Shown here one piece after another: positions 18,289 to 31,949 of a DNA stretch of 64,000 bases. The stretch comes from Arthrobacter sp. C2. GTDB lineage: Bacteria > Actinomycetota > Actinomycetes > Actinomycetales > Micrococcaceae. Numbering within the stretch: position 1 is the first letter of the stretch; each line of letters opens with the position of its first letter. Below the pieces are notes generated by a model. That model was not told where the DNA came from. It saw only the letters and a program-made list of their open reading frames with translations, and made no database searches. The stretch spans positions 2,294,001 through 2,358,000 of the forward strand of contig CP042428.1 of NCBI GenBank assembly GCA_024207135.1, given 5' to 3'. The position numbers were made by a program, and so were the translations under genes.

Positions 18289-18441
18289 GCAGCTTCCCTT
18301 CCCGGGTTTCCCGATTCGGGGCTCCCCCCCAGCCTCATTCTCGTCCCTGCGCCCGATCAAAGCCAGAGGCCCGCACGCCATGGGCCGAGGTTGCGCGGCC
18401 GGCGCCATCGTACAGGGTCCGTTCCGGCGCCTGCGCGGGCG

Positions 18442-19266
18442 CTACCGGGGCGAAGGCGGCTGGTCCCGGTCCACCCCGGGGCCGCCGGCCACCTCGCCCA
18501 GCCGCTCTTCCAGCAGTTTGGCGGTGCGCGCGGTTTCCCCGAGCAGGCCCGCGTCGAACACCTCCCGGAAACGGGATTGCGGGATGGCCACGCTGATGCC
18601 GCAGACCACCTCGCCGTCGGCATTGGTGATGGCCATTCCCAGCGCGCTGACCCCCTCTTCGGTCCCCTCGAAGTTGGCGGCGAACCCGCGATCCCGGACG
18701 AATCCGAGTTCGCGCACCAGGGCGGCGTAGTCAGCCTCATTGAGTTTGCGCGCGGTGGCCGTTTCCCCCCGGTAAAGCTGCTCAAGCTCGGGCGGGTCGA
18801 GCCGGGCCAGCATGGCCTTTCCGGCCGAGGCCCGGTGGGCGGGCAGCACCGTCCCCTGGCGGTCGCCGACGCGCACCGGCCGGGAACCCTCGACGGTGGA
18901 CAGGAAGCGGACTTCCCCGCCCACGCGCACCATCAGGTTCACGGTTTCCCGCACCGTGGCCGCCAGGTCCTCCAGCAGCGGCTGGGCCAGTGCACGCAGC
19001 TCGCTGATCCTGCCGTGGCCGGCCGGTCCGGCCCCGAGCGCGGGACCGGGAACGTAACCGCGGCCCCTCGCGCGTTCGGCAAAGCCGCGATAAATGAGCA
19101 TGGCCAGCAGGCGGTGGACGGTGGAGGGCGAGACGCCGAGCTCGGCGGCCGCGTCCTTGAGCCGGACGGAACCATGGTCGCGCAACAGCTCAATGAGCTT
19201 CAGGGCGTTGTCGACCGCGTCGATGGGGTAGCGGGGGATCTCGCGGCTTACCCGTAATTTCTGCAC
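18442..19266 (-). CDS. IclR family transcriptional regulator
   Basis: The 274-residue protein has an N-terminal IclR helix-turn-helix (AVDNALKLIELLRDHGSVRL, then ELGVSPSTVHRLLAML) and a C-terminal effector domain with LPAHRASAGKAMLARL. The start is GTG 19266. On the minus strand a TATAAT ends 7 bases before this GTG, so the mRNA is probably leaderless. A dyad over the start codon may be its own operator. It is divergent from an aromatic-acid-type transporter gene, and IclR proteins often control such genes (PcaR/PobR type). It probably senses an aromatic or hydroaromatic acid. Confidence 0.88.
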   Translation of the reverse strand: MQKLRVSREIPRYPIDAVDNALKLIELLRDHGSVRLKDAAAELGVSPSTVHRLLAMLIYRGFAERARGRGYVPGPALGAGPAGHGRISELRALAQPLLEDLAATVRETVNLMVRVGGEVRFLSTVEGSRPVRVGDRQGTVLPAHRASAGKAMLARLDPPELEQLYRGETATARKLNEADYAALVRELGFVRDRGFAANFEGTEEGVSALGMAITNADGEVVCGISVAIPQSRFREVFDAGLLGETARTAKLLEERLGEVAGGPGVDRDQPPSPR

Positions 19267-19303
19267 ATCAGAATTATATGCGCCGTCACACTGAGACCGG
19301 CAA
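19255..19303. promoter_or_regulatory. Leaderless IclR promoter and dyad operator
   Basis: On the minus strand TTGCCG (19303-19298) and TATAAT (19278-19273) are separated by 19 bases, and the GTG start (19266) lies where transcription should begin. An inverted repeat, TTCTG (19259-19263) and CAGAA (19269-19273), imperfectly extended to AATTTCTG/CAGAATTA, covers the start codon and the -10. Binding there could repress both divergent genes. Confidence 0.62.
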
Positions 19304-19314
19304 CACTTGTACCT

Positions 19315-20613
19315 ATGACTTTTTCCACAACGAGCGCCGTTGCGGGTCCCACCGGACAGAAGACCGGCGATTCGGCACAGCCGTCACAGCCCAGGAACAT
19401 TTCAAACCGCAAGGCCGTGCTGGCCATTGTGACCTGTTGGCTGTTGGTGGTTTTCGACGGGTACGACCTCATCGTGTACGGCACCGTGCAGTCATCCCTG
19501 CTGGCGATCGACGACTGGGGCCTGACCCCGACGACCATGGGCACCATCGGCTCGCTGGCCTTCGTGGGCATGATGATCGGTGCGCTCGGGGCCGGACGGC
19601 TGGCCGATGTGCTGGGTCGGCGCCGGACCATCCTGGCCTGCTCGATCCTCTTCTCCACCCTCACCATCCTGTGCGCCTTCGCCCCGAACCCCCTGGTCTT
19701 CGGCGCCCTCCGCCTGCTGGCCGGAATCGGCCTGGGTGGCCTCGTTCCCTCAGCCAACGCGATGGTGGCCGAACTGGTGCCGGACCGCTGGCGCTCGACC
19801 ATGGCCACGTTGATGATGTCGGGTGTGCCCATCGGCGGTTCGATCGCCGCCGTCACCGGCATCTGGGTCATCCCGGCCTTCGGCTGGGAAGCGATGTTCC
19901 TGATTGCCGTCATCGCGCTGGTCGTGGTGGTGCCGATGGGCTTCCGCTACCTGCCCGAAACCCTGTCCTTCAAGCACCGCAGCGGGCCGGGCGCGCGCCG
20001 CGGTTCCGGTTTCGGCCAGCTGCTCCGCGCCCCCTATGCCCGTGCCTCGGTGCTCTTCGCGGTGGCCTCGCTGGCCATCCTCTTCGCCTGGTACGGCCTG
20101 GGCACCTGGCTGCCCAGCCTGATGGAACAGGCCGGGTACGACCTGGGCTCGGCCCTGACCTTCGCGCTGGCCCTGAACCTGGGCGCCGTGGCAGGCTCCG
20201 TCGTCACGGCCTGGGCCGGTGACCGCTTTGGCGCCGCCCCCGCCGCGGCCGCCGCGGCCCTGGTGGCTGGGATAGGCCTGGCCGTCATCATGACCACTCC
20301 CCCGGTCGGCGTCGTCTACGCGATGTTGATCCTCGCCGGCGTGGGCACCCACGGCACCGCTGCGCTGCTGATCGCCGCCGTCGCCAACCACTACCCGGAA
20401 CGCCTGCGCGGCACCGCGCTGGGCTGGGCAATGGGCATGGGCCGAATCGGCGCCGTCGCAGCCCCGCAGGTTGGCGGACTGTTGTTGGCCTCCGGGCTCG
20501 GCGTCAACTCGAACTTCCTCGTCTTCGCCTTGGGAGCGGGCCTGGCCGCAGTCCTGTTCGCCGTGATCACCTTCCGCGTCAAGCCCGTGGCCGACCCAGC
20601 CGAACAGCACTAG
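19315..20613 (+). CDS. MFS transporter, aromatic acid:H+ symporter type
   Basis: The 432-residue protein has twelve predicted helices. It carries the AAHS/PcaK-type motif VVFDGYDLIVYG in helix 1 (the D-G-Y-D acidic signature) and the loop 2-3 motif GRLADVLGRRRTI. The family takes up 4-hydroxybenzoate, protocatechuate, benzoate, shikimate or similar acids. No catabolic genes for a specific aromatic acid adjoin it. The cyclohexanecarboxylate-type operon lies just downstream on the other strand, so a role in importing that acid is conceivable but unproven. Divergence from an IclR gene suggests substrate induction. A terminator follows. Confidence 0.87.
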   Translation: MTFSTTSAVAGPTGQKTGDSAQPSQPRNISNRKAVLAIVTCWLLVVFDGYDLIVYGTVQSSLLAIDDWGLTPTTMGTIGSLAFVGMMIGALGAGRLADVLGRRRTILACSILFSTLTILCAFAPNPLVFGALRLLAGIGLGGLVPSANAMVAELVPDRWRSTMATLMMSGVPIGGSIAAVTGIWVIPAFGWEAMFLIAVIALVVVVPMGFRYLPETLSFKHRSGPGARRGSGFGQLLRAPYARASVLFAVASLAILFAWYGLGTWLPSLMEQAGYDLGSALTFALALNLGAVAGSVVTAWAGDRFGAAPAAAAAALVAGIGLAVIMTTPPVGVVYAMLILAGVGTHGTAALLIAAVANHYPERLRGTALGWAMGMGRIGAVAAPQVGGLLLASGLGVNSNFLVFALGAGLAAVLFAVITFRVKPVADPAEQH

Positions 20614-20630
20614 CCGCCGCGAAATGCCAT

Positions 20631-20678
20631 GGCCCGGGCGGCCTTCCCCTCCGCGGGGAACGGCCACCCGGGCCTTTT
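20631..20678 (+). terminator. Terminator of the MFS gene
   Basis: GGCCCGGG (20631-20638) pairs with CCCGGGCC (20667-20674), with inner GGCC/GGCC and CCCC/GGGG pairings, and is followed by TTTT. The position is right after the MFS stop. Confidence 0.82.
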
Positions 20679-20834
20679 GGCATGTCCGGGGGCAAGGGAT
20701 ACGTCCGGTCGCGAGTCCACCGGGACTCGGTCGCTCTGACCAGGGTGACTGCGCCCGGACGCATGTGGCATTGGCGGCCCCGCCGCCTGGTCACGGGGCT
20801 TCCCAGGCAGACATCAATACACCGGCCGGCCCGG

Positions 20835-21293
20835 TCACGGTCGGGTTCGGAGCCGTTGGGCCGATTCCCCGGACGGGACCCATTTGACGATGTGGGTTGC
20901 GAGGGCCACGAGGTCCCCGTCGACACGCGCCTCGACCTTGGCTGAAGCGCGCCAGCCAACGGGGTCGTAGGACTCGAACTCGTGGTGCACGTGCAACGTC
21001 TGCCCGGGGAAAACAGGCTTGATGAAGCGAATGCGGTCATAGCCCAAGGAGACCGGGACAAGGCCATGAGGCCGGGCATCCTCAAGGGCCCGTCCGGCGG
21101 CAGTGGACATGAACCCGACCACGAGTGCCCCATGGACGTGGCGGGTTCCGTACACCGAAGAGTTCATGTACTCCTCGTCGGTGTGATTGGCCGCGAAGTC
21201 ACCGGTGATCCCGGAGAAGAGCACCATGTCGGTTTCCGTGATGGTCTTCCTAAAGACTGTCACGGCACCAACTTCGATTGGGTTCTCGTCCAT
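20835..21293 (-). CDS. MaoC-like (R)-specific hydratase
   Basis: The 152-residue hot-dog-fold protein carries the hydratase-2 motif GDFAANHTDEEYM with the catalytic pair D32 and H37. Such enzymes hydrate 2-enoyl-CoA thioesters to (R)-3-hydroxyacyl-CoA. ATG 21293 is preceded by AAAGGAG; upstream in-frame extension is unsupported. It is the last gene of the eleven-gene CoA-thioester operon, 107 bases after the SDR gene. A short GC hairpin (21379-21395) lies near the start of that gap. It may handle an intermediate of pimeloyl-CoA or ring-substituted substrates. No clear terminator follows it. Confidence 0.86.
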   Translation of the reverse strand: MDENPIEVGAVTVFRKTITETDMVLFSGITGDFAANHTDEEYMNSSVYGTRHVHGALVVGFMSTAAGRALEDARPHGLVPVSLGYDRIRFIKPVFPGQTLHVHHEFESYDPVGWRASAKVEARVDGDLVALATHIVKWVPSGESAQRLRTRP

Positions 21294-21400
21294 GCTGTGG
21301 CTCCTTTGCCATGGAATGATGATTCTTCTCTGGTGGTTCCTGGTGGTGACACGGATCTTGGCTGCTGAAAACAGTCGAGGCGACACCGTGTCGCCCCGGA

Positions 21401-22195
21401 TCACATGGTCAGTCCGCCGGAAACGGAGAGCACCTGCCCGGTGGTGTATCCGGCCTCCGCCGAGGCAAGGTGAGCCACCGCTGCGGCAACCTCGTCGGCT
21501 CGTGCAGGCCGGCCCTTCGGGACGGCCTTGAGCGTTCCGTTCATGACCTTGCCGGTGAAACCTTCGTCCGCCAGCATTCCTGCGAGCAATAGCGTATCGG
21601 TGGGGCCCGGCGAAACCACGTTGATGGATATGTCCTTGCGGGCCGTCTCACGCGCAACGGATCTGGCCATTCCGGCCAGTCCGGCCCGGGCAGCAGAGGA
21701 TGCGGCATCGCCAAGCGTCCCGGCCTTGCCGCTGTCCGAGCCAATCAGCACGATCCGCCCGAAGCCGGCCTCGAGCATGCCGGGCAGCACGGCCCGGACC
21801 AGCAGCATTGGTCCGTAGAGCTCGGTGTCCAGGATTTCGTGGAGCATGTCCGGCTCGGTGTCCTTGAGCACCTTCAGTGCGTGTCGGTGGCCGGTGGTGA
21901 CGATGAGCGTATCTATTCCGCCCAGCGCCTTGGCGGCTTCCCCTCCTGCTCCGGCGATGGCTTCAACCGCTGCCGCGTCCACTGCGTCCAGACGGGCACG
22001 GCCGGCCCAGCTTCCAGAAGGCAGCCGGTCCCCCACAGCGGCGGCCCCTTCGCCGTTCCCGTGGAATGTTCCGAAGATTCGGGCTCCCGCGCCGGCCAGT
22101 CGCTCGGCGATCGCGGCCCCGATTCCGCCGGTTCCCACCAGCAGCACTTTGCGTCCGGCGTACTCACCGTTTTCTTGAGATGCTCTCTGGGTCAT
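21401..22195 (-). CDS. SDR-fold protein lacking the catalytic Tyr and Lys
   Basis: The 264-residue protein aligns with SDR oxidoreductases and most closely by eye with the BadH-like protein of the same operon. It has a glycine-rich nucleotide loop (GTGGIG, residues 21-26, one residue shorter than usual), Ser153 of the IGSD segment, SPGPTDT and the C-terminal GQVLSVSGGLTM. The YxxxK motif is replaced: the Tyr position is S166 and the Lys position is R170. The tetrad Asn position is E125, and NNAG is TTGH. Normal SDR chemistry is therefore unlikely. ATG 22195 has AAAGGA upstream. It could be a non-catalytic partner or have an altered reaction; it is intact, without frameshift. Confidence 0.8.
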   Translation of the reverse strand: MTQRASQENGEYAGRKVLLVGTGGIGAAIAERLAGAGARIFGTFHGNGEGAAAVGDRLPSGSWAGRARLDAVDAAAVEAIAGAGGEAAKALGGIDTLIVTTGHRHALKVLKDTEPDMLHEILDTELYGPMLLVRAVLPGMLEAGFGRIVLIGSDSGKAGTLGDAASSAARAGLAGMARSVARETARKDISINVVSPGPTDTLLLAGMLADEGFTGKVMNGTLKAVPKGRPARADEVAAAVAHLASAEAGYTTGQVLSVSGGLTM

Positions 22196-22229
22196 GGCGT
22201 TGTGTCCTTTGGTTGTATTTCCTTGTTCT

Positions 22230-23495
22230 TTAGAAGGCCGAATGCCCGGTGATTTTTCGGCCAATCAGCAAGGACTGGATGAACTCGGTGCCTTCATAGG
22301 TATGGACCACTTCCATGTCCGTCAGGTGCCGGGCCACGTGGAAGTCCAGGAGCAGGCCGTTGCCGCCCATCAGGTCCCGGGCTTGGTTGGCGATGGTGCG
22401 GGCCTTGTTGGCCGTGTGCATCTTGGCAATCGAGGCCATGGTGCCGGTCCACGCCCCGCTTTCCTGCAGTTCTGCCATCCGATAGCAGATCAGCTGGATC
22501 GCGCTCAATTCCGCGAGCATGTCGGCCAGGGTGTTCTGCACCAGCTGGGTGTTGCCGATTGGCTGGCCGAACTGGTCGCGGACCCGCGTGTAGGCAACCG
22601 CTGCTTCGAAGCAAGCAAGTGCATGGCCCAGCGATTCCCAGGTGGCTCCGCCGCGGGTGCTTGCCAGCACCCGCGAGGTGTCGCGGAAGCTATTGGCCCC
22701 GGGCAGCCGGTTGCTCTCTGGAATGGCGAGGTTTTCGAAGACCATGTCCGCCTGGAGGATTGCGCGTTTGCCGATCTTCCCATCAATGGTGCGGGCGTTG
22801 AACCCGGCAGGCATGGTGCTGGGATCGGTCGGATCCTCGCGTTCCATGACGAAGCCCTTGACCTCGCCGTCGGCTACGTCGCGGGCCCAGATGATCACCA
22901 GATGCGCCATGGAGCCGTTGCCGATCCAGCGCTTGGCACCGTTAATGACCCAGTTCTCACCTTCGCGGCGGGCGCTGGTTTCCAGCTGGGCCGAGTCGGA
23001 GCCGCGGCGTGGTTCGGTCAGCGCGAAGGCGCCGATCTTCTCAAGCTTCACCATGCCGGGAAGCCAGCGTTCTTTTTGGTCTTCGGAGCCGAGCATGTTG
23101 ATGGTTCCCATGCTCAGGTTGGCCTGCACCCCAAGGAAGGTGTTCACCGAACCGTCGCCGCGCGCCAGCTCGGCGGTTGCCAATCCCGCAGCCAGCCGGG
23201 AAAGGCCGGCGGCCCCGTGGTCCTTGATCACGCCGCCGACAAGTCCTGTCGCCGCCAGGCCCGGAAGCATCTCATAGGGGAATTCCGCCCGTTCCCAGTA
23301 GCCGTTGATCTTCGGCAGGACTTCGGCATTGACGTATTGACGCATCTTCGCACGTGCGTCTTTGGCGTCCTGCGGCAGATCCGCATCCAGCAGGAAGTAG
23401 TCGGTATCCAGCGGGGTGTTCAGTTCTTTGCGAAGCGCCAGCAGATACTCGTCGCTTTCGTCAAAGTCTGGAAAGCCCCCGTGCGTCTCACTCAT
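22230..23495 (-). CDS. Acyl-CoA dehydrogenase
   Basis: The 421-residue flavoprotein has the acyl-CoA dehydrogenase layout: FALTEPRRGSDSA at the flavin-binding turn, NGAKRWIGNGS, and near the C terminus TYEGTEFIQSLLIGR with the usual catalytic glutamate of the YEGT motif. It should introduce a 2,3-double bond into an acyl-CoA, passing electrons to ETF. The start overlaps the stop of the upstream 3-hydroxyacyl-CoA dehydrogenase gene by eight bases. In this operon it may act on pimeloyl-CoA or a downstream dicarboxylyl-CoA. The substrate is not decidable from sequence. Confidence 0.88.
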   Translation of the reverse strand: MSETHGGFPDFDESDEYLLALRKELNTPLDTDYFLLDADLPQDAKDARAKMRQYVNAEVLPKINGYWERAEFPYEMLPGLAATGLVGGVIKDHGAAGLSRLAAGLATAELARGDGSVNTFLGVQANLSMGTINMLGSEDQKERWLPGMVKLEKIGAFALTEPRRGSDSAQLETSARREGENWVINGAKRWIGNGSMAHLVIIWARDVADGEVKGFVMEREDPTDPSTMPAGFNARTIDGKIGKRAILQADMVFENLAIPESNRLPGANSFRDTSRVLASTRGGATWESLGHALACFEAAVAYTRVRDQFGQPIGNTQLVQNTLADMLAELSAIQLICYRMAELQESGAWTGTMASIAKMHTANKARTIANQARDLMGGNGLLLDFHVARHLTDMEVVHTYEGTEFIQSLLIGRKITGHSAF

Positions 23496-24351
23496 AGTCG
23501 TACCAGCCCTTGCCTGATTTGCGGCCGAACTGGCCGGCTTCATACTTTTCTTGCAGCAGCGGATGCGGCAGATCTTTGCTGTCGCCGGTTTGTTCGAAGG
23601 CCGCCTGGCGAATCAGATAGGTCACGTCCAGGCCCACCAAATCCATCAGCTCGAAAGGTCCCATCGGATATCCCAGTGCGTCTTTGGCCGCTGTGTCGAT
23701 ATCTTCCAGGCTGGCCACCTCGCCCGCGAGCAAGGCAAGTGCCTCATCGCGCACCGCACCCATCAGCCTGTTGGCTACGAAACCGGGAATTTCCTTGTTC
23801 AGAAGAATTGGGGATTTGCCCATGTCGCGCACCACTTTGCTGACGGTTTCCACCGTGCGATCACTAGTCCGTTCATGGCGCACAATTTCCACGGCCTTCA
23901 TCACCAATGCGGGATTGAAGAAGTGCATGTTGCATACCTGCTCGGGACGCCCGGTAGCGTCTGCGACGGTGGAAGATCCCAGAGTTGAGGAATTCGTGGC
24001 CAGGATCGCGTGCTTCGGGGTCAGCTCGTCGAGCTGGCTGAAAATCGATTTCTTGATCTCCAGCTTTTCGGTGGCCGCCTCGATCACCAGCTCCGCGTTG
24101 GCTGCCGCAGGTTCCAGTTCGGTGGTGAATTCCAGGCGTCCCCACGCGTCCTCGGCTTCCGCCGAGGTCAGCCTGCCCTTGGAAATGCGGCCGTCCAGCC
24201 ACTTTCGCATGTCCTGCTCGGCGGCTTTCACCGACTCGGCGCTGATGTCATAGACCTTGGTGGTGAATCCTGCGACGGCAGCGCTCATCCCGATCTGCCT
24301 GCCCATGGCTCCGGAACCGACCACAAGAATTTCCTTGACCGAACTTTCCAT
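23488..24351 (-). CDS. 3-hydroxyacyl-CoA dehydrogenase
   Basis: The 287-residue enzyme has the N-terminal NAD-binding loop GSGAMGRQIG, the ATNSSTLGSS segment and the catalytic-histidine motif NMHFFNP, followed by the C-terminal helical domain (RLMGAVRDEALALL). This is the 3-hydroxybutyryl-CoA dehydrogenase type. It oxidises (S)-3-hydroxyacyl-CoA to the 3-keto form. An alternative GTG start at 24360 overlaps the upstream stop as GTGA; I prefer ATG 24351, which suits family length and lies 12 bases after AGGGG. In the operon it probably serves beta-oxidation after ring opening. Confidence 0.88.
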   Translation of the reverse strand: MESSVKEILVVGSGAMGRQIGMSAAVAGFTTKVYDISAESVKAAEQDMRKWLDGRISKGRLTSAEAEDAWGRLEFTTELEPAAANAELVIEAATEKLEIKKSIFSQLDELTPKHAILATNSSTLGSSTVADATGRPEQVCNMHFFNPALVMKAVEIVRHERTSDRTVETVSKVVRDMGKSPILLNKEIPGFVANRLMGAVRDEALALLAGEVASLEDIDTAAKDALGYPMGPFELMDLVGLDVTYLIRQAAFEQTGDSKDLPHPLLQEKYEAGQFGRKSGKGWYDYE

Positions 24352-24356
24352 GTGCG

Positions 24357-25163
24357 TCACCGCCCCTGGAATTCTGCCGGACGCTTGCCCAGGAACGCGG
24401 CAACACCCTCGGCCTTGTCTGCTGTGGTGTAGAGCAGGGTCTGGGCCAGCAGTTCGAGCATCTGCCCGGTCTTCTGGTCAGTTTCGGCTCCCTGCTTGAT
24501 CACCATCTTGGCCAGGCGTACGGCCAACGGTCCCTTGCTAGCGATCGTCGCGGCGGTGTCGCGGACGGTTGCCAGCAGCCGCTCCCCCGGGACCACGCTG
24601 GTGACCAGGCCGAAGCGCTCGGCTTCCCCGGCGTCCAGCAACCTGCTGGTCAACACCATTTCCACGGCTCGGCCGGTGCCGACCAGCCGGGAAAGCCGTT
24701 GGGTGCCGCCGGCGCCGGGAAGCACTCCGAGGCTCGGCTCCGGCAGCCCGAAACGTGCCCCTTGTGCGGCGATGCGGATATCGCAGCTCATGGCCATTTC
24801 CAATCCGCCGCCCAGCGCGATGCCGTTCAGCGCGGCGATGGTTGGCTTGGGGTACTCCTCAATCTTGTCGAAGAGACGCTGCATCGCTCCGGCCAATCCG
24901 TAGGCGACGTCATAGTTCGCCAGCTGGCTGATGTCTGCGCCGGCAACGAAGGCTTTCTCGCCCGAGCCGGTGAAGGCCACCGCGCGCACCTGGTCGTCTT
25001 CCTCCCACACGTCCAGGACGCTGCGGATTTCGGCGAGCACCGTCTTGGACAGCGCATTGCGAACTTCGGGACGGTTGATGGTGATCAGGCCCAGGCCCTC
25101 GACCACCGAGGCGGTGATGGTTTCGAATCCCGCCGGTTGGGTCTCTTGCGCCGTGTGAGTCAT
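24357..25163 (-). CDS. badK: Enoyl-CoA hydratase, BadK-like
   Basis: The 268-residue crotonase-fold enzyme keeps both catalytic glutamates of true hydratases, in GGGLEMA and LPEPSLG, and the oxyanion-hole segment KAFVAGADI. It should hydrate an enoyl-CoA, here plausibly cyclohex-1-ene-1-carboxyl-CoA to 2-hydroxycyclohexanecarboxyl-CoA, as BadK does in Rhodopseudomonas. ATG 25163 follows the stop of the upstream acyl-CoA dehydrogenase gene by seven bases, with GGGGA between. Generic beta-oxidation enoyl-CoA hydratases look the same, so the specific name rests on the BadH/BadI/AliA context. Confidence 0.8.
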   Translation of the reverse strand: MTHTAQETQPAGFETITASVVEGLGLITINRPEVRNALSKTVLAEIRSVLDVWEEDDQVRAVAFTGSGEKAFVAGADISQLANYDVAYGLAGAMQRLFDKIEEYPKPTIAALNGIALGGGLEMAMSCDIRIAAQGARFGLPEPSLGVLPGAGGTQRLSRLVGTGRAVEMVLTSRLLDAGEAERFGLVTSVVPGERLLATVRDTAATIASKGPLAVRLAKMVIKQGAETDQKTGQMLELLAQTLLYTTADKAEGVAAFLGKRPAEFQGR

Positions 25164-25170
25164 CGTCCCC

Positions 25171-26391
25171 CTACTTTCCCGAGGCCGTGAAGGCCCCAAT
25201 GCCGGTCAACTTGCGTCCCAGGATCAGCGTGTGGATCTCGTCGGTGCCCTCATAGGTTCGCACCGATTCCAGGTTGTTGGCATGGCGCAGCGGCGAGTAG
25301 TCCAGGGTGATGCCATTGCCGCCAAGCATTTCGCGCGCCTCGCGGGCGATCTTGATGGCCTCGCGGCAGTTGTTCAGCTTGCCCACCGAGATCATCGTCG
25401 GATCCAGCGTTCCGGCATCCTTGGCCCGGCCGATCTGCAGTGCCAGCAGGTAGCCCTTGTTGATCTCCAACGCCATGTCCGCAAGCTTCGCCTGGGTCAG
25501 CTGGAATCCCGAGAGCGGGGTGCCGAATTGCAGGCGTTCGCCGGAATAACGCAATACCTCGTCGAAGGAATCCCGGGCCGCGCCCATGGCGCCCCAGATG
25601 ATGCCGTAGCGGGCCTCATTCAGGCAGGCGAAGGGCCCCTTGAGTCCGATCGCCGAGTCTTCGGGAAGGATCGCTTCCGCCGGCAAACGCACGTCGGCCA
25701 GGGTGATGTCGCACTGCACCGAGGCCCGCATGGACAGCTTCGGCTCGATGGCCACGGCCGTGAAGCCGGGGGTGTTGGTCGGGACAATGAAGCCACGCAC
25801 CCCGCGGGCGTCCCCGGGCTCGCCGGTCTGCGCCCAGATGATCGCCACGTCGGCGATCGTGGCCAGGCCGATCCAGCGCTTGGCGCCGTTGAGCACCCAG
25901 TCCCCGGACGCGTCGCGCACCGCGTGGGTGGCCATCGATGCCGGGTCCGAACCCGCCGTTGGTTCGGTGAGCCCGAAGCAGCCGATGATCTCACCTTTGG
26001 CCATGCCCGGCAGCCAGGTTTGCTTCTGTTCCTCGGAGCCGTGCTTGTGAATGGCGCTCATGGCCAGCGAGCCCTGCACTGAGACGAAGGTGCGCAGGCC
26101 CGAGTCTCCGGCTTCCAGCTCGGAGGCGGCCAAGCCATAGTCCACTGCCGAGCGGCCTGCACAACCGTAACCCTGCAGGTGCATGCCCAGAAGCCCCAGC
26201 TTCGCCATCTCCGGCACTATTTCGCGCGGGAAGACGGCCCGCTCGTACCAGCCGGCGATGTTTGGACGGATGTGTTCGTCGACCATCGTGCGCACCTCGC
26301 GCACCAGCTGCCTTTCGGGCTCGCTCAACTGGCCATCCAGCCCGGTGAGGTCAACGGTGCCGAACACCGATGCTGTTTTTACCTGTGTCAT
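25171..26391 (-). CDS. gcdH: Glutaryl-CoA dehydrogenase-like acyl-CoA dehydrogenase
   Basis: The 406-residue protein resembles glutaryl-CoA dehydrogenase along its whole length. Signatures are LQGYGCAG, FGLTEPTAGSDPASM, GPFACLNEARYGIIWGAMGA, EMLGGNGIT and NLESVRTYEGT with the catalytic Glu. The family oxidises and decarboxylates glutaryl-CoA to crotonyl-CoA, the expected last step when pimeloyl-CoA is shortened by one beta-oxidation round. A GTG at 26397 overlaps the aliA stop (GTGA); the ATG at 26391 is the more conventional start. A non-decarboxylating pimeloyl-CoA dehydrogenase is the alternative. Confidence 0.82.
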   Translation of the reverse strand: MTQVKTASVFGTVDLTGLDGQLSEPERQLVREVRTMVDEHIRPNIAGWYERAVFPREIVPEMAKLGLLGMHLQGYGCAGRSAVDYGLAASELEAGDSGLRTFVSVQGSLAMSAIHKHGSEEQKQTWLPGMAKGEIIGCFGLTEPTAGSDPASMATHAVRDASGDWVLNGAKRWIGLATIADVAIIWAQTGEPGDARGVRGFIVPTNTPGFTAVAIEPKLSMRASVQCDITLADVRLPAEAILPEDSAIGLKGPFACLNEARYGIIWGAMGAARDSFDEVLRYSGERLQFGTPLSGFQLTQAKLADMALEINKGYLLALQIGRAKDAGTLDPTMISVGKLNNCREAIKIAREAREMLGGNGITLDYSPLRHANNLESVRTYEGTDEIHTLILGRKLTGIGAFTASGK

Positions 26392-26393
26392 GC

Positions 26394-28091
26394 TCACTTG
26401 CTTTCATCCTTGGCTGCAGTGGCCGCCGCATGCATCGCGGCGAGTTCCGCGCCGAATTCTTCGGTCAGTTCCTTGCGGATCTTGAATTTCTGGATTTTTC
26501 CGCTGGGTGTGCGCGGGAAGTCCTCGACCACCTTGACCACCTCGGGCCAGTAGGGTTTGGCCAGTCCCTTGGACTCGAGGAATGCGCGCATTTCCGCGAG
26601 GGTGAATTCCCCCGGTTCCTTGAGCTGGACGACCACTCCGCCGACTTCCTGCAGTCTCGGATGCGGGATCGCGACCAGCGCCACCGCGTTGATCCGCGGG
26701 TGTTCGTAGAGGATGTTCTCCACGTAGGCGACCGGGATGTTCTCCCCGCCGCGGATGATGATGTCCTTGGTGCGTCCGGACAGGCGCAGGTAGCCGTCCT
26801 CGTCCAGGCTTCCCAAATCGCCGGTGTCGAACCAGTCCCCGTCGAATTCCTCGAGGGTCTTCTCCAGCTGTCCGAGGTAGCCGCGGAAGAGGAACGCCCC
26901 ACGGACCTGGATCTTGCCTTCCTCGTTGGTTGCGGCCTGTTCCCCGAGCAGGTTCATCACGCGCACCTCCATGCCGGGCAGTGCCTTGCCGTCGGAGGAG
27001 AGGATCTTCTCCTGCGGGTCCTGCGGGCTGCCCATGGTGACCAGGCAGCATTCGGTCTGTCCCCAGCCGCCGAAGACGTCCAGCGTGGGCAGCTTCGCCT
27101 TGGCCTCGAGCAGGACGGCACGCGGGATGGGTGCGCCCATGCAGCAGAAGCGTGCCAGCGAGCTCATGTCGTGGTTCTCCAGCCCCTCGGCATGCAACAG
27201 GTCCTGCAGGAACGGGGTGGCTCCCGAGGTGTGCTGGATGCCGTGTTTCTCGACCAGGGCCAGGAATTCGGCGGCGTTCCACACCTGCTGTGCCACCAAG
27301 GTTCCACCGAGCATGATCGGCAGGGCCACGCCGTAGAGATAGCCGGTCAGGTGCGCAAAGGTCGAGGCCATGTGAATGACCGAGGAAGAATCCATTCCCA
27401 GTTTGCCGCTCCAGGGAAGGGACCCGGCGAGCACCGTGTTGTGCGAGTGCATGCCGCCCTTGGGGCTGCCCGTGGTGCCCGAGGTGAACATGATCAGCGC
27501 CAGGTCGTCGGCATCCGGACGCCGTTTGGCGAGCTCTGCCGCGGCAAGGGGGTGCTCGGCGCCCCGGGCCAACAGGTCGTCGAACCCGATGACCCCCGCC
27601 CGTGCCTCGCTGGGCCCGACCACCACGCAGTGTTCGAGGTCCGGCAGGTCCCCGCGTAGCCGTTCGACCATGGCAGCATGGTCGAACTTGCGGAAAACGG
27701 CGGGAACGAAGATCACCTTCGTGCGTGCCTTGGCCGCCATGAAACCGATCTCGCGGTCGCGAAAGATCGGAACCAGCGGGTTGGTGACGGCGCCGACGCG
27801 CTGCGCCGCCAGGTGCGCAACGATCCAGTGGTGTCCATTGGGCAACTGGACGGAGACAACGTCCCCGGCGTTGACGCCCAGGTCCGCCAAGCCACCCGCC
27901 GCGTCCTCCACCATCCGGGCCATGTCCTGGTAGGTGTAGGTGCCCGAGGCGTCAATATGGGCGGTTTCCTGCGGGTGGCTGGCCACCGCATCATCGAAGT
28001 AGTCGATGAGCAGGCGGTCCTTCCAGAATCCTTGGGACTTGAAGCCTTCGGAGGCCTCGGAAAGCTGAAGCATGTCAAACGTGGAGCTCAT
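26394..28091 (-). CDS. aliA: Cyclohexanecarboxylate-CoA ligase-like AMP-binding protein
   Basis: The 565-residue protein is an ANL-superfamily adenylating enzyme. It has the P-loop-like motif MFTSGTTGSPKGGMHSH (about 205-221), GGWGQTEC, the hinge GDWFDTGDLG, RTKDIIIRGGENI and the C-terminal catalytic lysine motif PRTPSGKIQKFKIR. This subgroup includes AliA (cyclohexanecarboxylate-CoA ligase). It should activate a carboxylic acid to its CoA thioester using ATP, providing entry to the pathway encoded around it. It lies 30 bases after badH and overlaps or abuts the next gene. A medium-chain fatty acid ligase is the main alternative. Confidence 0.82.
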   Translation of the reverse strand: MSSTFDMLQLSEASEGFKSQGFWKDRLLIDYFDDAVASHPQETAHIDASGTYTYQDMARMVEDAAGGLADLGVNAGDVVSVQLPNGHHWIVAHLAAQRVGAVTNPLVPIFRDREIGFMAAKARTKVIFVPAVFRKFDHAAMVERLRGDLPDLEHCVVVGPSEARAGVIGFDDLLARGAEHPLAAAELAKRRPDADDLALIMFTSGTTGSPKGGMHSHNTVLAGSLPWSGKLGMDSSSVIHMASTFAHLTGYLYGVALPIMLGGTLVAQQVWNAAEFLALVEKHGIQHTSGATPFLQDLLHAEGLENHDMSSLARFCCMGAPIPRAVLLEAKAKLPTLDVFGGWGQTECCLVTMGSPQDPQEKILSSDGKALPGMEVRVMNLLGEQAATNEEGKIQVRGAFLFRGYLGQLEKTLEEFDGDWFDTGDLGSLDEDGYLRLSGRTKDIIIRGGENIPVAYVENILYEHPRINAVALVAIPHPRLQEVGGVVVQLKEPGEFTLAEMRAFLESKGLAKPYWPEVVKVVEDFPRTPSGKIQKFKIRKELTEEFGAELAAMHAAATAAKDESK

Positions 28092-28121
28092 GGGTGGTTC
28101 CTTCCGTTTACGTGGTCCCAG

Positions 28122-28868
28122 CTAGACCATGGTCAGTCCACCGGAGACCGAAAGGGTCTGTCCGGTGATGTAGGAGGCCTCGTCCGAGGCCAGGAATGCG
28201 ACGGCGTTGGCCAGGTCCTCGGGCTGGGCCAGGCGGCGCAGCGGGATCGACTTTTCCAGGGCGGTGCGCAGCTTCGGGTTTTGCTCGCTGATGGCGGCGA
28301 ACAGCGGGGTGTCTGCCGGGCCGGGGCACACCGCGTTGACGCGGATGGCGTTGCGGGCTAGTTCGCGGGCCAGGGTCTTGGAGAAGGCAACGATGCCGCC
28401 CTTGGCCGCCGAGTACACGGCCTCGCCGGAGGAACCCACACGGGCCGCGTCGGAGCCGATGTTCACGATGGTTCCGCTCTCCTGGCCCTCCATGGCGCGC
28501 ACCACGGACTGGCTGCAATTCAGCGTGCCGTACAGGTTGATGGCGATGACGCGCTCCCAGTCGGCGAACTCGGAGTCGATGAACGGACCGACCTTGTCCC
28601 AGCCGGCGTTGTTCACCAGCACGTCGATGCGGCCGAACTCCTCCTTGACCCCCGCAACCATCGCATCCACGGATTCGCGACTGGTCACGTCCGCGCGGAC
28701 GCCGATCGAGCCGTTGCCCAGCTGGCTTGCGGTTTCCTTGGCGGCTTCTTCGTTGATGTCGCTGACCACGACGGTGGCACCCTCGGCTGCCAGCTTCACC
28801 GCGATACCGCGGCCGATGCCCGATCCGGCACCGGTGACGATTGCGATCTTGTTTTCAAGCTTTCCCAT
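28122..28868 (-). CDS. badH: 2-hydroxycyclohexanecarboxyl-CoA dehydrogenase-like SDR
   Basis: The 248-residue classical SDR has TGAGSGIG (residues 12-19), NNAGWD, NIGSDAARVGSSGEAVYSAAK with the complete Ser-Tyr-Lys set, and ends in GQTLSVSGGLTMV. The NNAGWD and SDAARVGSSGEAVY segments are shared with BadH of Rhodopseudomonas palustris, which oxidises 2-hydroxycyclohexane-1-carboxyl-CoA to the 2-keto thioester. ATG 28868 has GGGAAG upstream. Its position between aliA and aliB strongly supports this role. FabG-type reductases are the general alternative. Confidence 0.84.
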   Translation of the reverse strand: MGKLENKIAIVTGAGSGIGRGIAVKLAAEGATVVVSDINEEAAKETASQLGNGSIGVRADVTSRESVDAMVAGVKEEFGRIDVLVNNAGWDKVGPFIDSEFADWERVIAINLYGTLNCSQSVVRAMEGQESGTIVNIGSDAARVGSSGEAVYSAAKGGIVAFSKTLARELARNAIRVNAVCPGPADTPLFAAISEQNPKLRTALEKSIPLRRLAQPEDLANAVAFLASDEASYITGQTLSVSGGLTMV

Positions 28869-28918
28869 TTTTCTTCCCTCTTCGTCGTATGTACTTGGTG
28901 CCGATGCCCGTGCTTGGT

Positions 28919-30064
28919 TTACGGGGCGAACTCGCGGCCCACGGACTGGCGGGCGATGATCAGCTTCATGATCTGCGCGGTGCCGTCGCCGATCTGCAGG
29001 CCCAGCACGTCCCGCATGCGCTGCTCGATCGGGCGATCGGTCTTGTAGCCGAATTGGCCGTGCAGCAGCAGGCAGGAATTGATCACGTCGTAGGCGGTCT
29101 TCGGGGCCCACCATTTGCACATGGCGGCTTGCGAGGTGTGCGGCAAGCCCTCGTCCTTTAGCCACAGCGTCTGGTAGCAGAGCAACCGGGCCGCTTCGAT
29201 CAGGGTTTCGCTTTCGGCCAGCGGGAAGGCAACCCCTTGGAAGGAACTCAGCGGCTTGTCGAAGGCGTTGCGGCTCTTGACGTACTCCCAGGTCTCCTCG
29301 ATGGTGATCGCGGCGGTACCGATGCACTGCAAGCCGATCAGCGCGCGGGAGAAGTCGAAGCCCTGCATGACCTGCGTGAAGCCCTTTCCCTCGTCGCCGA
29401 TGAGGTTCCCGTCCGGGATCCAAGCGTTGGTGTAGTGCGCGAAACCGCGGGTGACGGCCTTGGTGCCCATGTCATCGACCGCCTCGACTTCGACCCCGTC
29501 GGCATTCAGGTCGGTGAGGAAAGCGCTGATGCCGCGTCCGCGGCGCTGCGCGTCGTCGGTCTTGGCGAACACCACTGCCGCATCGGCCTGCAGCGCGAAG
29601 GAGAGCGACTTGGTGCCGTTGAGCACCCAGCCGCCGCGTTCGCGGCGTGCCTGCAGCGAGGGGTTCCCGGCGTCCGATCCGGCGCCGGGTTCCGAGAGGC
29701 CGATACCCACGATGCCCTCGCCGCTGGTGATGCGCGGAACCCAGGCCTTCGCCAGCTCCGGGGAGGCGTTGCCGGCCAGGATCTGGCCGACCAGCGATCC
29801 AACCACCTGCAGGTAGGCCACGTTGAAGTCGCCGCGGGCGATCTGCTCGGTGATGAGCCCGGAGGTCAGCCGGCGTTCTCCGCGGCCGCCCAGTTCGGTG
29901 GGCAGTTCCGGGGCGATCAGGCCTCGGGCGCCGATCTCGCGGCGCAACTCCGGTTCGATCCTTCGGTCGATCTCGCGCTGCTTGTAGCCCGGCGCGATCT
30001 GCTCGGCGACCAGCCGAGCTTCCTTGACGAACCCCTCTTGGGTTTCGGTGAGTTTAAAGTCCAT
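28919..30064 (-). CDS. aliB: Cyclohexanecarboxyl-CoA dehydrogenase-like acyl-CoA dehydrogenase
   Basis: The 381-residue acyl-CoA dehydrogenase has GIGLSEPGAGSDAGNP, LNGTKSLSFALQAD and the C-terminal LIIARQSVG. At the place of the usual YEGT catalytic motif it reads GDGTAQI, so the catalytic Glu is replaced by D360. The AliB assignment comes from the neighbours: ligase, BadH and BadI. AliB would oxidise cyclohexanecarboxyl-CoA to cyclohex-1-ene-1-carboxyl-CoA. ATG 30064 is preceded by AGGAA. Whether the Asp serves as base, or a different residue does, needs structural comparison. Confidence 0.8.
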   Translation of the reverse strand: MDFKLTETQEGFVKEARLVAEQIAPGYKQREIDRRIEPELRREIGARGLIAPELPTELGGRGERRLTSGLITEQIARGDFNVAYLQVVGSLVGQILAGNASPELAKAWVPRITSGEGIVGIGLSEPGAGSDAGNPSLQARRERGGWVLNGTKSLSFALQADAAVVFAKTDDAQRRGRGISAFLTDLNADGVEVEAVDDMGTKAVTRGFAHYTNAWIPDGNLIGDEGKGFTQVMQGFDFSRALIGLQCIGTAAITIEETWEYVKSRNAFDKPLSSFQGVAFPLAESETLIEAARLLCYQTLWLKDEGLPHTSQAAMCKWWAPKTAYDVINSCLLLHGQFGYKTDRPIEQRMRDVLGLQIGDGTAQIMKLIIARQSVGREFAP

Positions 30065-30099
30065 CGGGACGGTTCCTATCCAGGATGTCGGTGGCGCGG

Positions 30100-30909
30100 C
30101 TAGTGGGAGGTGACGTGGGCGTTGAAGTCCGGTTTGCGCTTCTCCGCGAAGGCGCGGGCGCCTTCCATGCCCTCGGGCGAGACGGCATAGAGGTCCAGTG
30201 CGGACATGGCCATGTTGCTCAGGCCCGCTTGGTGGTCGGTGTCCGCGTTGAAGGACTGCTTCAGGAAGCGCAGCGCGGTCGGGGACTTCTCGGCGATCTC
30301 CGCAGCCCAGGCCTTGGCCTCGTCCATCAGCTTTGCCGGCTCGACCACTGCGTTGACCAGGCCCCAGCGCTCGGCCGTGACCGCATCGTACTGACGGCAC
30401 AGGTACCAGATTTCACGGGCGCGTTTTTCGCCGACGACGCGGGCCAGGTAGGCAGAGCCGAAGCCGGCGTCGAAGGAACCCACGCGCGGGCCTGCCTGTC
30501 CGAACTTGGCGGTTGAGGAGGCGATGGTCAGGTCGCAGAGCACGTGCAGGACGTGTCCGCCTCCGATGGCGATGCCGTTGACCGCGGCAATCACGGGCTT
30601 TGGCACGTCGCGGATCAGCTTGTGCAGGTTTCCGATCTCGAACATCCCGGACTCGCTCGGTCCGTAGTCTCCGGTCTCCGCACGCTGTTTCACGTCACCT
30701 CCGGTGCAGAAGGCCTTTTCCCCGGCGCCGGTGAGGATAACGGCCTGGACCTTGCGATCGGCCCATGCTGCTCGGAACGCGGCGATCAGCTCCTCAACGG
30801 TCTGGCTGCGGAACGAGTTGTAGCGCTCCGGCCGATTGATGGTGATGATTGCGGCCGCGTCCTCGACCTCGTAGCTGATGTCTTCGAATGAACTCACGTT
30901 GATGGGCAT
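30100..30909 (-). CDS. badI: 2-ketocyclohexanecarboxyl-CoA hydrolase-like crotonase
   Basis: The 269-residue crotonase-family protein carries KAFCTGGD, LIRDVPKPVIAAVNGIAIGG, FGQAGPRVGSFDAGFGSAYL and ARVVGEKRAREIWYLCRQYD, and ends in AFAEKRKPDF. These are the segments of BadI, which hydrolytically opens 2-ketocyclohexane-1-carboxyl-CoA to pimeloyl-CoA. MenB (DHNA-CoA synthase) shares several of them, but the C-terminal part and the operon fit BadI better. The hydratase glutamate pair is absent, as expected. ATG 30909 has AAAGGAA upstream. It is the first enzyme gene after the TetR gene. Confidence 0.84.
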   Translation of the reverse strand: MPINVSSFEDISYEVEDAAAIITINRPERYNSFRSQTVEELIAAFRAAWADRKVQAVILTGAGEKAFCTGGDVKQRAETGDYGPSESGMFEIGNLHKLIRDVPKPVIAAVNGIAIGGGHVLHVLCDLTIASSTAKFGQAGPRVGSFDAGFGSAYLARVVGEKRAREIWYLCRQYDAVTAERWGLVNAVVEPAKLMDEAKAWAAEIAEKSPTALRFLKQSFNADTDHQAGLSNMAMSALDLYAVSPEGMEGARAFAEKRKPDFNAHVTSH

Positions 30910-30936
30910 GGCAATTCCTTTCGTGGGATGACGTGC

Positions 30937-31608
30937 TTAGGCCAGGTCGCCGAGCAGGTCCGAATACTGTGAACGGGTTTCGGGGCGCAGCACGCCGGAG
31001 AGCGCCAGCGCAGTGTGGTGGGCAATGAAGTCCTCATGGCTGAAATGCCTGCTGAAGTACCAGTGCTTTAGGGCCCATGAGTGGGCTGTCATTAGCAGCT
31101 GAAAGGCGAATATCCGATAGTCGACCGGGCGGATGAGACCGGCGTCGGCGGCGTCCAGCACGGCCTTGGACAACAGTTTGCCGGTGGTCAATTCAAGCTC
31201 CTTGACGGCGCTCCGACCTGCGGCATCCAGGGTCTTCGTGTCCCTATAGGCCAAGATGGTGCCATCGCGGTTCTCGTCGATCACTTCGCAGTAGCCCTTG
31301 AATGCCGCGGCAATCTGCCGCACGGGATCTTCCACCTCGGTCACCGCAGCGCCTACGCGGTTCGAAAACTCTTCCAGCACCCCCACGATGACGGCCTGGA
31401 CCAGATCCTGTTTGTTGCCGAAGTAGCGGTAAATCAACCCGACGCTGACCCCGGCCGCGTCGGCCACGGACTGCATGGACACCTCTTGTGATCCGCGCTC
31501 CTCCATCAGACGCGCGGCCGCTGCCAGCAATTGCTTCCGGCGCGACTTGGTCCGGGCATCTCGGGCGGCCGCGGTGGCCTCATCGGCTCCCTGCTGCAGC
31601 GTTTTCAT
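30937..31608 (-). CDS. TetR family regulator of the cyclohexanecarboxylate-type operon
   Basis: The 223-residue protein has a TetR helix-turn-helix (RRKQLLAAAARLMEERGSQEV, with GVSVGLIYRYFGNKQDLVQA) and a C-terminal domain resembling acyl-CoA-sensing TetR proteins such as those of the FadR/PsrA/KstR kind. ATG 31608 is preceded by a strong GGAGGAG. It is the first gene of the operon, and the perfect palindrome just upstream is probably its own operator. It should therefore auto-repress and control all ten downstream genes. The inducer is likely a CoA thioester, which is inference. Confidence 0.88.
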   Translation of the reverse strand: MKTLQQGADEATAAARDARTKSRRKQLLAAAARLMEERGSQEVSMQSVADAAGVSVGLIYRYFGNKQDLVQAVIVGVLEEFSNRVGAAVTEVEDPVRQIAAAFKGYCEVIDENRDGTILAYRDTKTLDAAGRSAVKELELTTGKLLSKAVLDAADAGLIRPVDYRIFAFQLLMTAHSWALKHWYFSRHFSHEDFIAHHTALALSGVLRPETRSQYSDLLGDLA

Positions 31609-31656
31609 GTGGCTCCTCCGGCACAGTCCACGGACAATGAATGTTGGTTCACCATG

Positions 31657-31710
31657 AATGAATGATCATTCATTTCCTCCAACTTAGTGACGTGCCACAC
31701 ACTTTGTCAA
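31657..31710 (-). promoter_or_regulatory. Operon promoter with 18-bp TetR palindrome
   Basis: AATGAATGATCATTCATT (31657-31674) is a perfect 18-base palindrome 48 bases from the tetR start codon. On the minus strand a consensus TTGACA occupies 31710-31705. The expected -10 region (TAAGTT or CTAAGT) is weak. The expected transcription start falls next to the palindrome, so repressor binding would block it. Confidence 0.72.
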
Positions 31711-31814
31711 GGGTTCGATTTTGCATAGGCCGCGACGGACAAGCGCCAGAAACGAACCGAACCACCCGGTGTCTACTGGCCCACCACGGGCCTGGGTCGC
31801 CACGACATTCGACA

Positions 31815-31862
31815 AACGCGTCGTTGGCGAGCCCCTCCGCGGGGGCTCGCCAACGACGCGTT
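31815..31862. terminator. Long perfect hairpin between divergent transcription units
   Basis: Arms of 21 bases (31815-31835 and 31842-31862) pair without mismatch around a 6-base loop and are followed on the plus strand by CAAAAAA. The minus-strand flavoprotein gene ends at 31950, so this probably terminates it, although only three T residues follow in that direction. Confidence 0.7.
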
Positions 31863-31949
31863 CAAAAAATGAGCCTCTGGCTCTTGGCCCCGAGGGCCTG
31901 GACGATCCCTGGCAGAATCCATCGATCGCCACCCTCGAGTTGAAGCAGG

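Follow-up and report, generated by a model that had tools for sequence, protein, structure and literature searches.

A probable cyclohexanecarboxylate operon of the bad–ali type with most of the lower pathway and a conserved second BadH-family protein in Arthrobacter sp. C2

Clusters of bad and ali genes accompanied by TetR genes that run in the same direction are known in Rhodococcus and Corynebacterium (PMC5906575, PMC9795900). In Rhodococcus aetherivorans BCP1, growth on cyclohexanecarboxylate raises the expression of the catabolic chcpca genes about 70- to 290-fold, and growth on cyclopentanecarboxylate 180- to 800-fold (PMC5906575), and the BadR repressor of Aromatoleum responds to cyclohexanecarboxyl-CoA (PMC9795900). 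Here we describe an operon of eleven genes on the minus strand of Arthrobacter sp. C2, at positions 20835–31608 of a 64,000-nucleotide stretch of contig CP042428.1 (positions 2,294,001 to 2,358,000; hereafter the window), which is a part of the single 4.56-Mb contig of this genome. Its gene content, conserved order, family placements, residue changes, operator and insertion are read directly from the DNA. In our reading it is very probably an actinobacterial bad–ali cluster for cyclohexanecarboxylate with most of the lower pathway built in.

Compared by gene list, the operon shares with the chcpca cluster genes for BadI, BadH, AliA, glutaryl-CoA dehydrogenase (GCDH), AliB, an enoyl-CoA hydratase and TetR, and BCP1 is likewise an aerobic actinobacterium; it differs in that the two TetR genes of BCP1 lie late in their cluster, and in that Table 2 of that paper has no 3-hydroxyacyl-CoA dehydrogenase, second GCDH-like dehydrogenase, second short-chain dehydrogenase/reductase (SDR) or MaoC protein (PMC5906575). 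The upper pathway equals that of the bad–ali–aab clusters of Aromatoleum and Rhodopseudomonas, and Aromatoleum also links to it a set for pimeloyl-CoA beta-oxidation, but these bacteria have a MarR-type BadR with a CAAN4TTG operator (PMC9795900), and in our trees the proteobacterial BadI and BadH groups are separate from the actinobacterial ones. A preliminary description of this DNA, made from its letters alone, presented the route as news for an actinobacterium. As Gram-positive bad–ali clusters with TetR genes are published, one of them induced (PMC5906575, PMC9795900), the pathway reading holds up but is no novelty. New, within the literature searched, are the conservation of the second SDR (hereafter pseudo-BadH), the addition of MaoC, the tandem operator and the clean insertion. 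No published pseudo-BadH was found in that search, and the search for Sinomonas cyclohexanicum returned PMC9795900 only. The running text of PMC9795900, as distinct from its figures, contains none of the terms 'SDR', 'MaoC' and 'short-chain dehydrogenase', and that of PMC5906575 contains neither 'MaoC' nor 'short-chain dehydrogenase'. Figure 6 of PMC9795900 draws genes of unknown function, and genes like those for pseudo-BadH or MaoC may already appear there.

The genes, in their 5′ to 3′ order, followed by the operator and the inserted segment, are:

30937–31608, minus strand: TetR-family regulator, first gene of the operon (PF00440, PF17932)
30100–30909, minus strand: BadI-like crotonase, putative ring-opening hydrolase, 2-ketocyclohexanecarboxyl-CoA to pimeloyl-CoA (badI and menB models, trees)
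28919–30064, minus strand: AliB-like acyl-CoA dehydrogenase, predicted to act on cyclohexanecarboxyl-CoA (TIGR03207)
28122–28868, minus strand: BadH-like SDR with intact N-S-Y-K, predicted 2-hydroxycyclohexanecarboxyl-CoA dehydrogenase (TIGR03206, BadH group)
26394–28091, minus strand: AliA-like ligase, predicted cyclohexanecarboxylate–CoA ligase (TIGR03208)
25171–26391, minus strand: GCDH, decarboxylating type by its residues (PDB matches, GLRTF and TYEGT)
24357–25163, minus strand: BadK-like enoyl-CoA hydratase (crotonase family)
23488–24351, minus strand: 3-hydroxyacyl-CoA dehydrogenase (PF02737 and PF00725)
22230–23495, minus strand: second GCDH-like acyl-CoA dehydrogenase, near acyl-CoA oxidase 4 and GCDH, without the GCDH arginine (2ix5)
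21401–22195, minus strand: second SDR, pseudo-BadH (altered motifs, clade inside the BadH family)
20835–21293, minus strand: MaoC-type hydratase with a GD-x4-H motif (PF01575, 55.8 bits against a cut-off of 27)
31638–31672, minus strand: tandem operator of two TGAA-N6-TTCA sites (conserved in relatives, unique in the genome)
20675–31948, no strand: 11,274-bp segment with operator and operon (absent from related species)

The open reading frame listing gave eleven frames, for eight of which the likely ATG starts were set, and the spacings along the operon are 27, 35, 50, 30, 2, 7, 5, −8, 34 and 107 bp. Pfam and NCBIfam matches assign a TetR protein, two crotonases, three acyl-CoA dehydrogenases, two SDRs, an AMP-ligase, a 3-hydroxyacyl-CoA dehydrogenase and a MaoC domain. 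The preliminary description was right about the coordinates and number of the minus-strand genes and about their short gaps and overlaps (−8 to 107 bp), and the family matches bear out its TetR regulator, degenerate SDR and MaoC protein; its AliB-like gene is present, at a position corrected to 28919–30064. The ring operon of the AliA–AliB–BadK–BadH–BadI type that it proposed, joined to steps from glutaryl-CoA to crotonyl-CoA, is supported as well.

From this gene set we infer the reactions, the inducer and a partnership of BadH. AliA would convert cyclohexanecarboxylate to cyclohexanecarboxyl-CoA, and AliB would convert the latter to cyclohex-1-ene-1-carboxyl-CoA, which would be hydrated by the crotonase (or MaoC), after which BadH would oxidise the alcohol and BadI would open the ring to give pimeloyl-CoA. 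The oxidase-4-like dehydrogenase, the crotonase or MaoC, and the 3-hydroxyacyl-CoA dehydrogenase would take pimeloyl-CoA to 3-oxopimeloyl-CoA, a thiolase encoded elsewhere in the genome would yield glutaryl-CoA, and GCDH would decarboxylate this to crotonyl-CoA, to be finished by the crotonase, the 3-hydroxyacyl-CoA dehydrogenase and a thiolase. TetR would repress from the tandem operator and be released by an acyl-CoA, probably cyclohexanecarboxyl-CoA, and pseudo-BadH would most likely be a non-catalytic subunit assembled with BadH. The pathway reading is based on family scores, conserved gene order, AliB-linked BadH and BadI groups, the GCDH residues, thiolases in the flanks of related loci that are nearest to a gene at 1.817 Mb, the tandem operator, the induced Rhodococcus homologue (PMC5906575) and the response of the Aromatoleum repressor to cyclohexanecarboxyl-CoA (PMC9795900).

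Homologues of AliA, AliB, BadH and BadI co-occur here in one operon, and the NCBIfam models for the first three rank first for their operon proteins. The ligase scored 514.1 bits with TIGR03208 (cut-off 792.3; next family 395), the AliB-like dehydrogenase 480.2 with TIGR03207 (cut-off 575.35; next family 231) and the BadH-like SDR 308.5 with TIGR03206 (cut-off 431.2; next family 268). Family scores of the proteins from the Sinomonas locus L041 are nearly equal to those of the window, and in a Tardiphaga cluster AliA lies above its cut-off and AliB, BadH and BadI are 2–28 bits short, these proteins having been scored as BLAST-matched stretches that may have lost end residues. Since their scores stay under the cut-offs, the actinobacterial proteins represent a divergent branch outside strict equivalog membership. 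The preliminary description had named a grouping of the BadH-like protein with FabG as an outcome that would speak against it; in our tree this protein (monomer model pLDDT 85.6) sits inside the BadH family.

The gene order recurs in other actinobacteria. A scan of genome contigs with AliB supplied the best 80 of 487 relatives, and presence or absence was counted in 51 of these 80 loci (L037–L087, of which L085 and L086 are non-actinobacterial by title); the counts rest on identity thresholds of our choice, and some loci are broken by contig ends. Of the 51 loci, 5, all titled Sinomonas, have all eleven genes in this order, and four more have ten of the eleven. With such recurrence, the operon is not a chance grouping. 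In the Tersicoccus operon only the second SDR is missing, no MaoC was found in those of L042, L044 and Corynebacterium lubricantis, the operons of Micrococcus Bu38 and Microbacterium ASV49 are without the last two genes, and eleven Brevibacterium loci have, within the fetched flanks, only BadI, AliB, BadH and AliA with a TetR gene. An orthologue of MaoC, whose GD-x4-H motif we take to be that of R-specific hydratases, was detected in 6/51 loci, and a 52% match to it in the proteobacterial locus L093, outside the 51. At E 1e-120, AliB was found in 14 of 297 sampled genomes of the order, our own counted.

Some loci combine these genes differently. Those of Zhihengliuella, Kocuria polaris and two further members of the family (L045, L046, L023, L025) have genes for AliB, BadH and a GCDH-like enzyme, and their fetched flanks contain no orthologue of BadI or AliA; the Actinomycetospora loci L053–L055 carry AliB, BadH and lower-pathway genes, their BadI and AliA matches being distant; all seven may use another ring-opening step or another substrate. 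Locus L042, titled Sporosarcina beigongshangi, has an operon of actinobacterial type, with BadI and BadH that the trees place as sisters of those of Arthrobacter sp. SDTb3-6; the label or assembly of this locus is doubtful.

In the lower pathway, the best PDB matches of the protein encoded at 25171–26391 are chains named glutaryl-CoA dehydrogenase (3swo, 493 bits; 1sir, 376 bits). Its GLRTF and TYEGT motifs hold the equivalents of Arg94 and Glu370, which we take to be the key residues of GCDH, and they are present in all 21 copies listed, 20 from relatives (only matches of at least 300 aa were compared) and 1 from the same genome. The residue that follows the Arg is Thr, as it is in the second own-genome copy, a separate GCDH gene at C1:3802200–3803348 that is 77% identical to the operon copy. 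The NCBIfam model NF045552 (glutaryl-CoA dehydrogenase Acd) gave 188.7 bits and its cut-off of 470 was not reached; the top NCBIfam match is a FadE model (238 of 600 bits). The other candidate, at 22230–23495, has acyl-CoA oxidase 4 as its best PDB match (2ix5, 323 bits) and carries Asn at the Arg94 position in the window and in 15/15 relatives listed. As Asn replaces the Arg94 equivalent, we rejected it as a GCDH, and it may be the pimeloyl-CoA dehydrogenase. The preliminary description had a glutaryl-CoA dehydrogenase-like enzyme in the operon, which fits 25171–26391 best; if 22230–23495 was meant, its residues speak against it.

That description also had no thiolase in the window, and all ten Thiolase_C matches of the genome do lie elsewhere. 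Thiolase genes occur in the fetched flanks of L042, L047, L058 and L060, and in a comparison that took 8 of the 10 own-genome thiolases their closest counterpart was in each case the gene at about 1.817 Mb (75.6, 69.5, 53.6 and 66.3% identity, respectively). The best models of that gene are of 3-oxoadipyl-CoA thiolase, below cut-off (pcaF 518 against 597), and the thiolases of L053–L055 are about 42% identical to it. This PcaF-like gene is the best candidate for the missing thiolase of the operon.

The regulator reaches no NCBIfam equivalog cut-off and is a probable acyl-CoA-responsive repressor. Its gene runs in the direction of the operon, as published for Gram-positive bad–ali clusters, and is preceded by TGAA-N6-TTCA sites at 31659–31672 and 31638–31651, whose starts are 21 bp apart; the outer site extends to TGAATGA-N4-TCATTCA (31655–31672), and a −35-like CTTGAC box begins 103 bp ahead of the TetR start. 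Before the TetR genes of relatives, the pair recurs at the 21-bp spacing in 15/16, the exception (L038) having the first site only, the box in 14/16 and the exact longer form in 8/16, as in the window; these counts leave aside seven loci in which TetR lies on the opposite strand or too close to an end. The longer form resembles the Bacillus FadR site, whose consensus did not come up in the literature searched; such a likeness would fit a TetR that senses an acyl-CoA. In the 4.56-Mb genome the pair occurs once, also when 2 mismatches are allowed, with 0 expected in the shuffled window, which suggests that TetR would have one target and that the distant thiolase and the second GCDH gene would stand outside its control. 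A perfect inverted repeat with 21-bp arms (window 31815–31862), located inside the inserted segment between a flavoprotein gene and the operator, is probably the terminator of the flavoprotein gene.

Judged from its sequence, pseudo-BadH belongs to the BadH family by descent. Its top NCBIfam model is BadH (168 of 431 bits), and together with nine orthologues it forms a clade (support 100/100) inside the 58-row BadH family group (100/98) of a tree built from 48 BadH, 10 pseudo-BadH and 14 of the 23 own-genome SDRs, with up to 19 loci, L040 included, omitted. Over BadH positions 187–248 the pseudo-BadH consensus is nearer to BadH than is any of 14 other SDRs. The catalytic N-S-Y-K is changed to Glu, Ser, Ser and Arg in 10/10 sequences and invariant as such in the 11/11 aligned; in 10/10 NNAG is lost, TGxxxGIG is one residue short, and the catalytic Ser and the BadH-type C-terminal SVSGGL-M tail are retained. 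Among 396 genomes of the phylum, a profile search identified the own gene as the sole pseudo-BadH orthologue, the next seven matches having BadH-type motifs with Tyr and Lys intact, and at E 1e-50 no copy besides the own gene turned up in 394 genomes of the class. Foldseek with its model (pLDDT 76; 198–227 and the C-terminus weak) led to FabG-type and other SDRs. Its dN/dS is 0.09–0.20 in 7/7 pairs (0.05–0.17 for BadH; some pairs are near saturation), a low ratio which argues that purifying selection keeps the gene. It was found in 10 of the 32 loci with BadI, AliB, BadH and AliA and in 0/19 others, and in Kocuria L050 it occurs in flanks without a detected GCDH, 3-hydroxyacyl-CoA dehydrogenase or oxidase-4-like gene, so pseudo-BadH appears tied to the upper module.

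Several results speak against this kinship or against a shared function with BadH. Over BadH positions 1–186, pseudo-BadH is overall no closer to BadH than are the other SDRs of the genome, it ranks only 16th among the 30 own-genome matches to the operon BadH (38%), and its nearest solved structures are FabG chains. Its clade is sister to proteobacterial, not actinobacterial, BadH (95/82), on a long branch that drew a warning from the tool, so that an origin as a recent copy of the neighbouring BadH is not shown. Moreover, it was not found in the otherwise matching Tersicoccus, Micrococcus and Microbacterium operons.

The SDR heterotetramer BbsCD, from anaerobic toluene degradation, reportedly contains inactive subunits and oxidises a 3-hydroxyacyl-CoA. 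The operon is similar in having an active and a degenerate SDR, and BbsD (7pcs_B) is 18th among the 60 solved chains listed for the window BadH; it differs in its substrate and in the five genes that separate its two SDR genes, and the 60 chains listed for pseudo-BadH do not include BbsC. By this analogy, we tentatively propose, at somewhat less than even chances, that some actinobacterial operons use a heteromeric BadH in which an active SDR is joined by a dead scaffold or specificity subunit. We regard it as rather unlikely that pseudo-BadH, instead of being a dead subunit, has been re-tooled into an enzyme that uses GHRH, Glu125, Ser153 and Arg170. The invariance of G102-H103-R104-H105, E125, S153, S166 and R170 in 11/11 sequences and the purifying selection would suit such an enzyme, but all SDR catalytic and cofactor motifs except Ser are changed, the BadH tail is kept, and the sole step that lacks an operon gene is that of the thiolase, for which an SDR fold would be unsuited.

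A number of observations weigh against the operon being a cyclohexanecarboxylate cluster. None of its members reaches the NCBIfam equivalog cut-offs (TIGR03206, 03207, 03208, 03210). The crotonase at 24357–25163 reaches no cut-off among the 25 families listed and is not distinguishable as BadK specifically; it could act on the ring, on pimelenoyl-CoA and on crotonyl-CoA. Some bad–ali loci are without a hydratase, GCDH, MaoC or pseudo-BadH in their flanks, and co-regulation of the distant thiolase is unsupported, since the operator occurs nowhere else. For the BadI-like protein, MenB models slightly outscore badI, all below cut-off (badI 328.7 bits against 467.6; menB 331.6 against 342.7; PRK07396 MenB 350.3 against 380), and the order of the three groups, actinobacterial BadI, proteobacterial BadI and MenB, differs between our trees.

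It is improbable, though it deserves mention, that the operon serves another alicyclic acid, such as cyclopentanecarboxylate or a substituted cyclohexanecarboxylate. Cyclohexanecarboxylate and, more strongly, cyclopentanecarboxylate induce the Rhodococcus homologue (PMC5906575), and the ligase and dehydrogenase scores fall far under their cut-offs; the presence of GCDH and 3-hydroxyacyl-CoA dehydrogenase would rather fit a C7 dicarboxylyl-CoA that is shortened to glutaryl-CoA.

The preliminary description had also named a placement of the BadI-like protein with MenB as an outcome against it. In a tree of 72 proteins, with up to 17 near-duplicate loci left out, this protein did not fall inside MenB: 27 actinobacterial BadI, including that of the operon, form one group (93/82), apart from 28 MenB (97/99) and 13 proteobacterial BadI (99/100). 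The best tree joins proteobacterial BadI to MenB (93/76), and an earlier tree joined actinobacterial BadI to MenB (89/60); in the AU test neither a clade of both BadI groups (p-AU 0.416) nor one of actinobacterial BadI with MenB (0.448) was rejected. Met235 and Leu238 are common to both BadI groups, where MenB has Gly and Thr, and at several other positions actinobacterial BadI carries the MenB residue. The genome has a separate MenB at 1822241–1823026 (377 bits, above the menB cut-off). With this and the separate tree group, we rejected the BadI-like gene as the housekeeping MenB. That it is a second MenB, in an operon with another purpose, as the PRK07396 score, the earlier tree and the p-AU of 0.448 would allow, is very improbable in view of the above-cut-off MenB elsewhere, the shared Met235 and Leu238 and the separate groups.

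The operon lies on a segment that is absent from related species. AliB is present in 1/15 genomes of the genus and the flanking flavoprotein gene in 15/15, and the operon is absent from all seven fetched relatives (of 14 in the genus). In one of these, G303, only 21 bp separate the matches to window 20674 and 31949. As G303 joins both edges and relatives are without the operon, the 11,274-bp segment appears to be one insertion or, less likely, to have been repeatedly lost. No direct repeats of at least 8 bp were found within the 100 bases compared per edge, and G+C differs little (64.1% in the segment, 65.7% in the flanks). The adjacent region 18431–20674, with an MFS transporter gene at 19315–20613, is also variable, two of the seven relatives keeping it and four being without it at the same site (the gene is kept in G303 and G306; G300 is rearranged), and it may be a hot spot of gene content. 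We rejected the MFS gene as the importer of the operon, as 26% matches lie near the operon in only 2 loci (L040, L043) and as the gene occurs without the operon in G303 and G306. A plasmid source was rejected too: pseudo-BadH has no plasmid match at E 1e-40, AliB matches in 46 plasmid records are all below 60% identity, and no plasmid record covers 80% of the first six genes by DNA. The plasmid pBN3 of Paraburkholderia aromaticivorans (L231) carries a bad–ali cluster in which a transposase gene separates badI from aliB.

Taken together, ring opening and most of beta-oxidation would be packed in one sporadically distributed operon, which would open naphthenic-acid-like compounds to a bacterium of the Micrococcaceae type. 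The tandem operator makes its regulation testable by a simple binding assay. If the proposed partnership with BadH is true, pseudo-BadH could bring alicyclic acids within the range of the pseudoenzyme-subunit arrangement of BbsCD.

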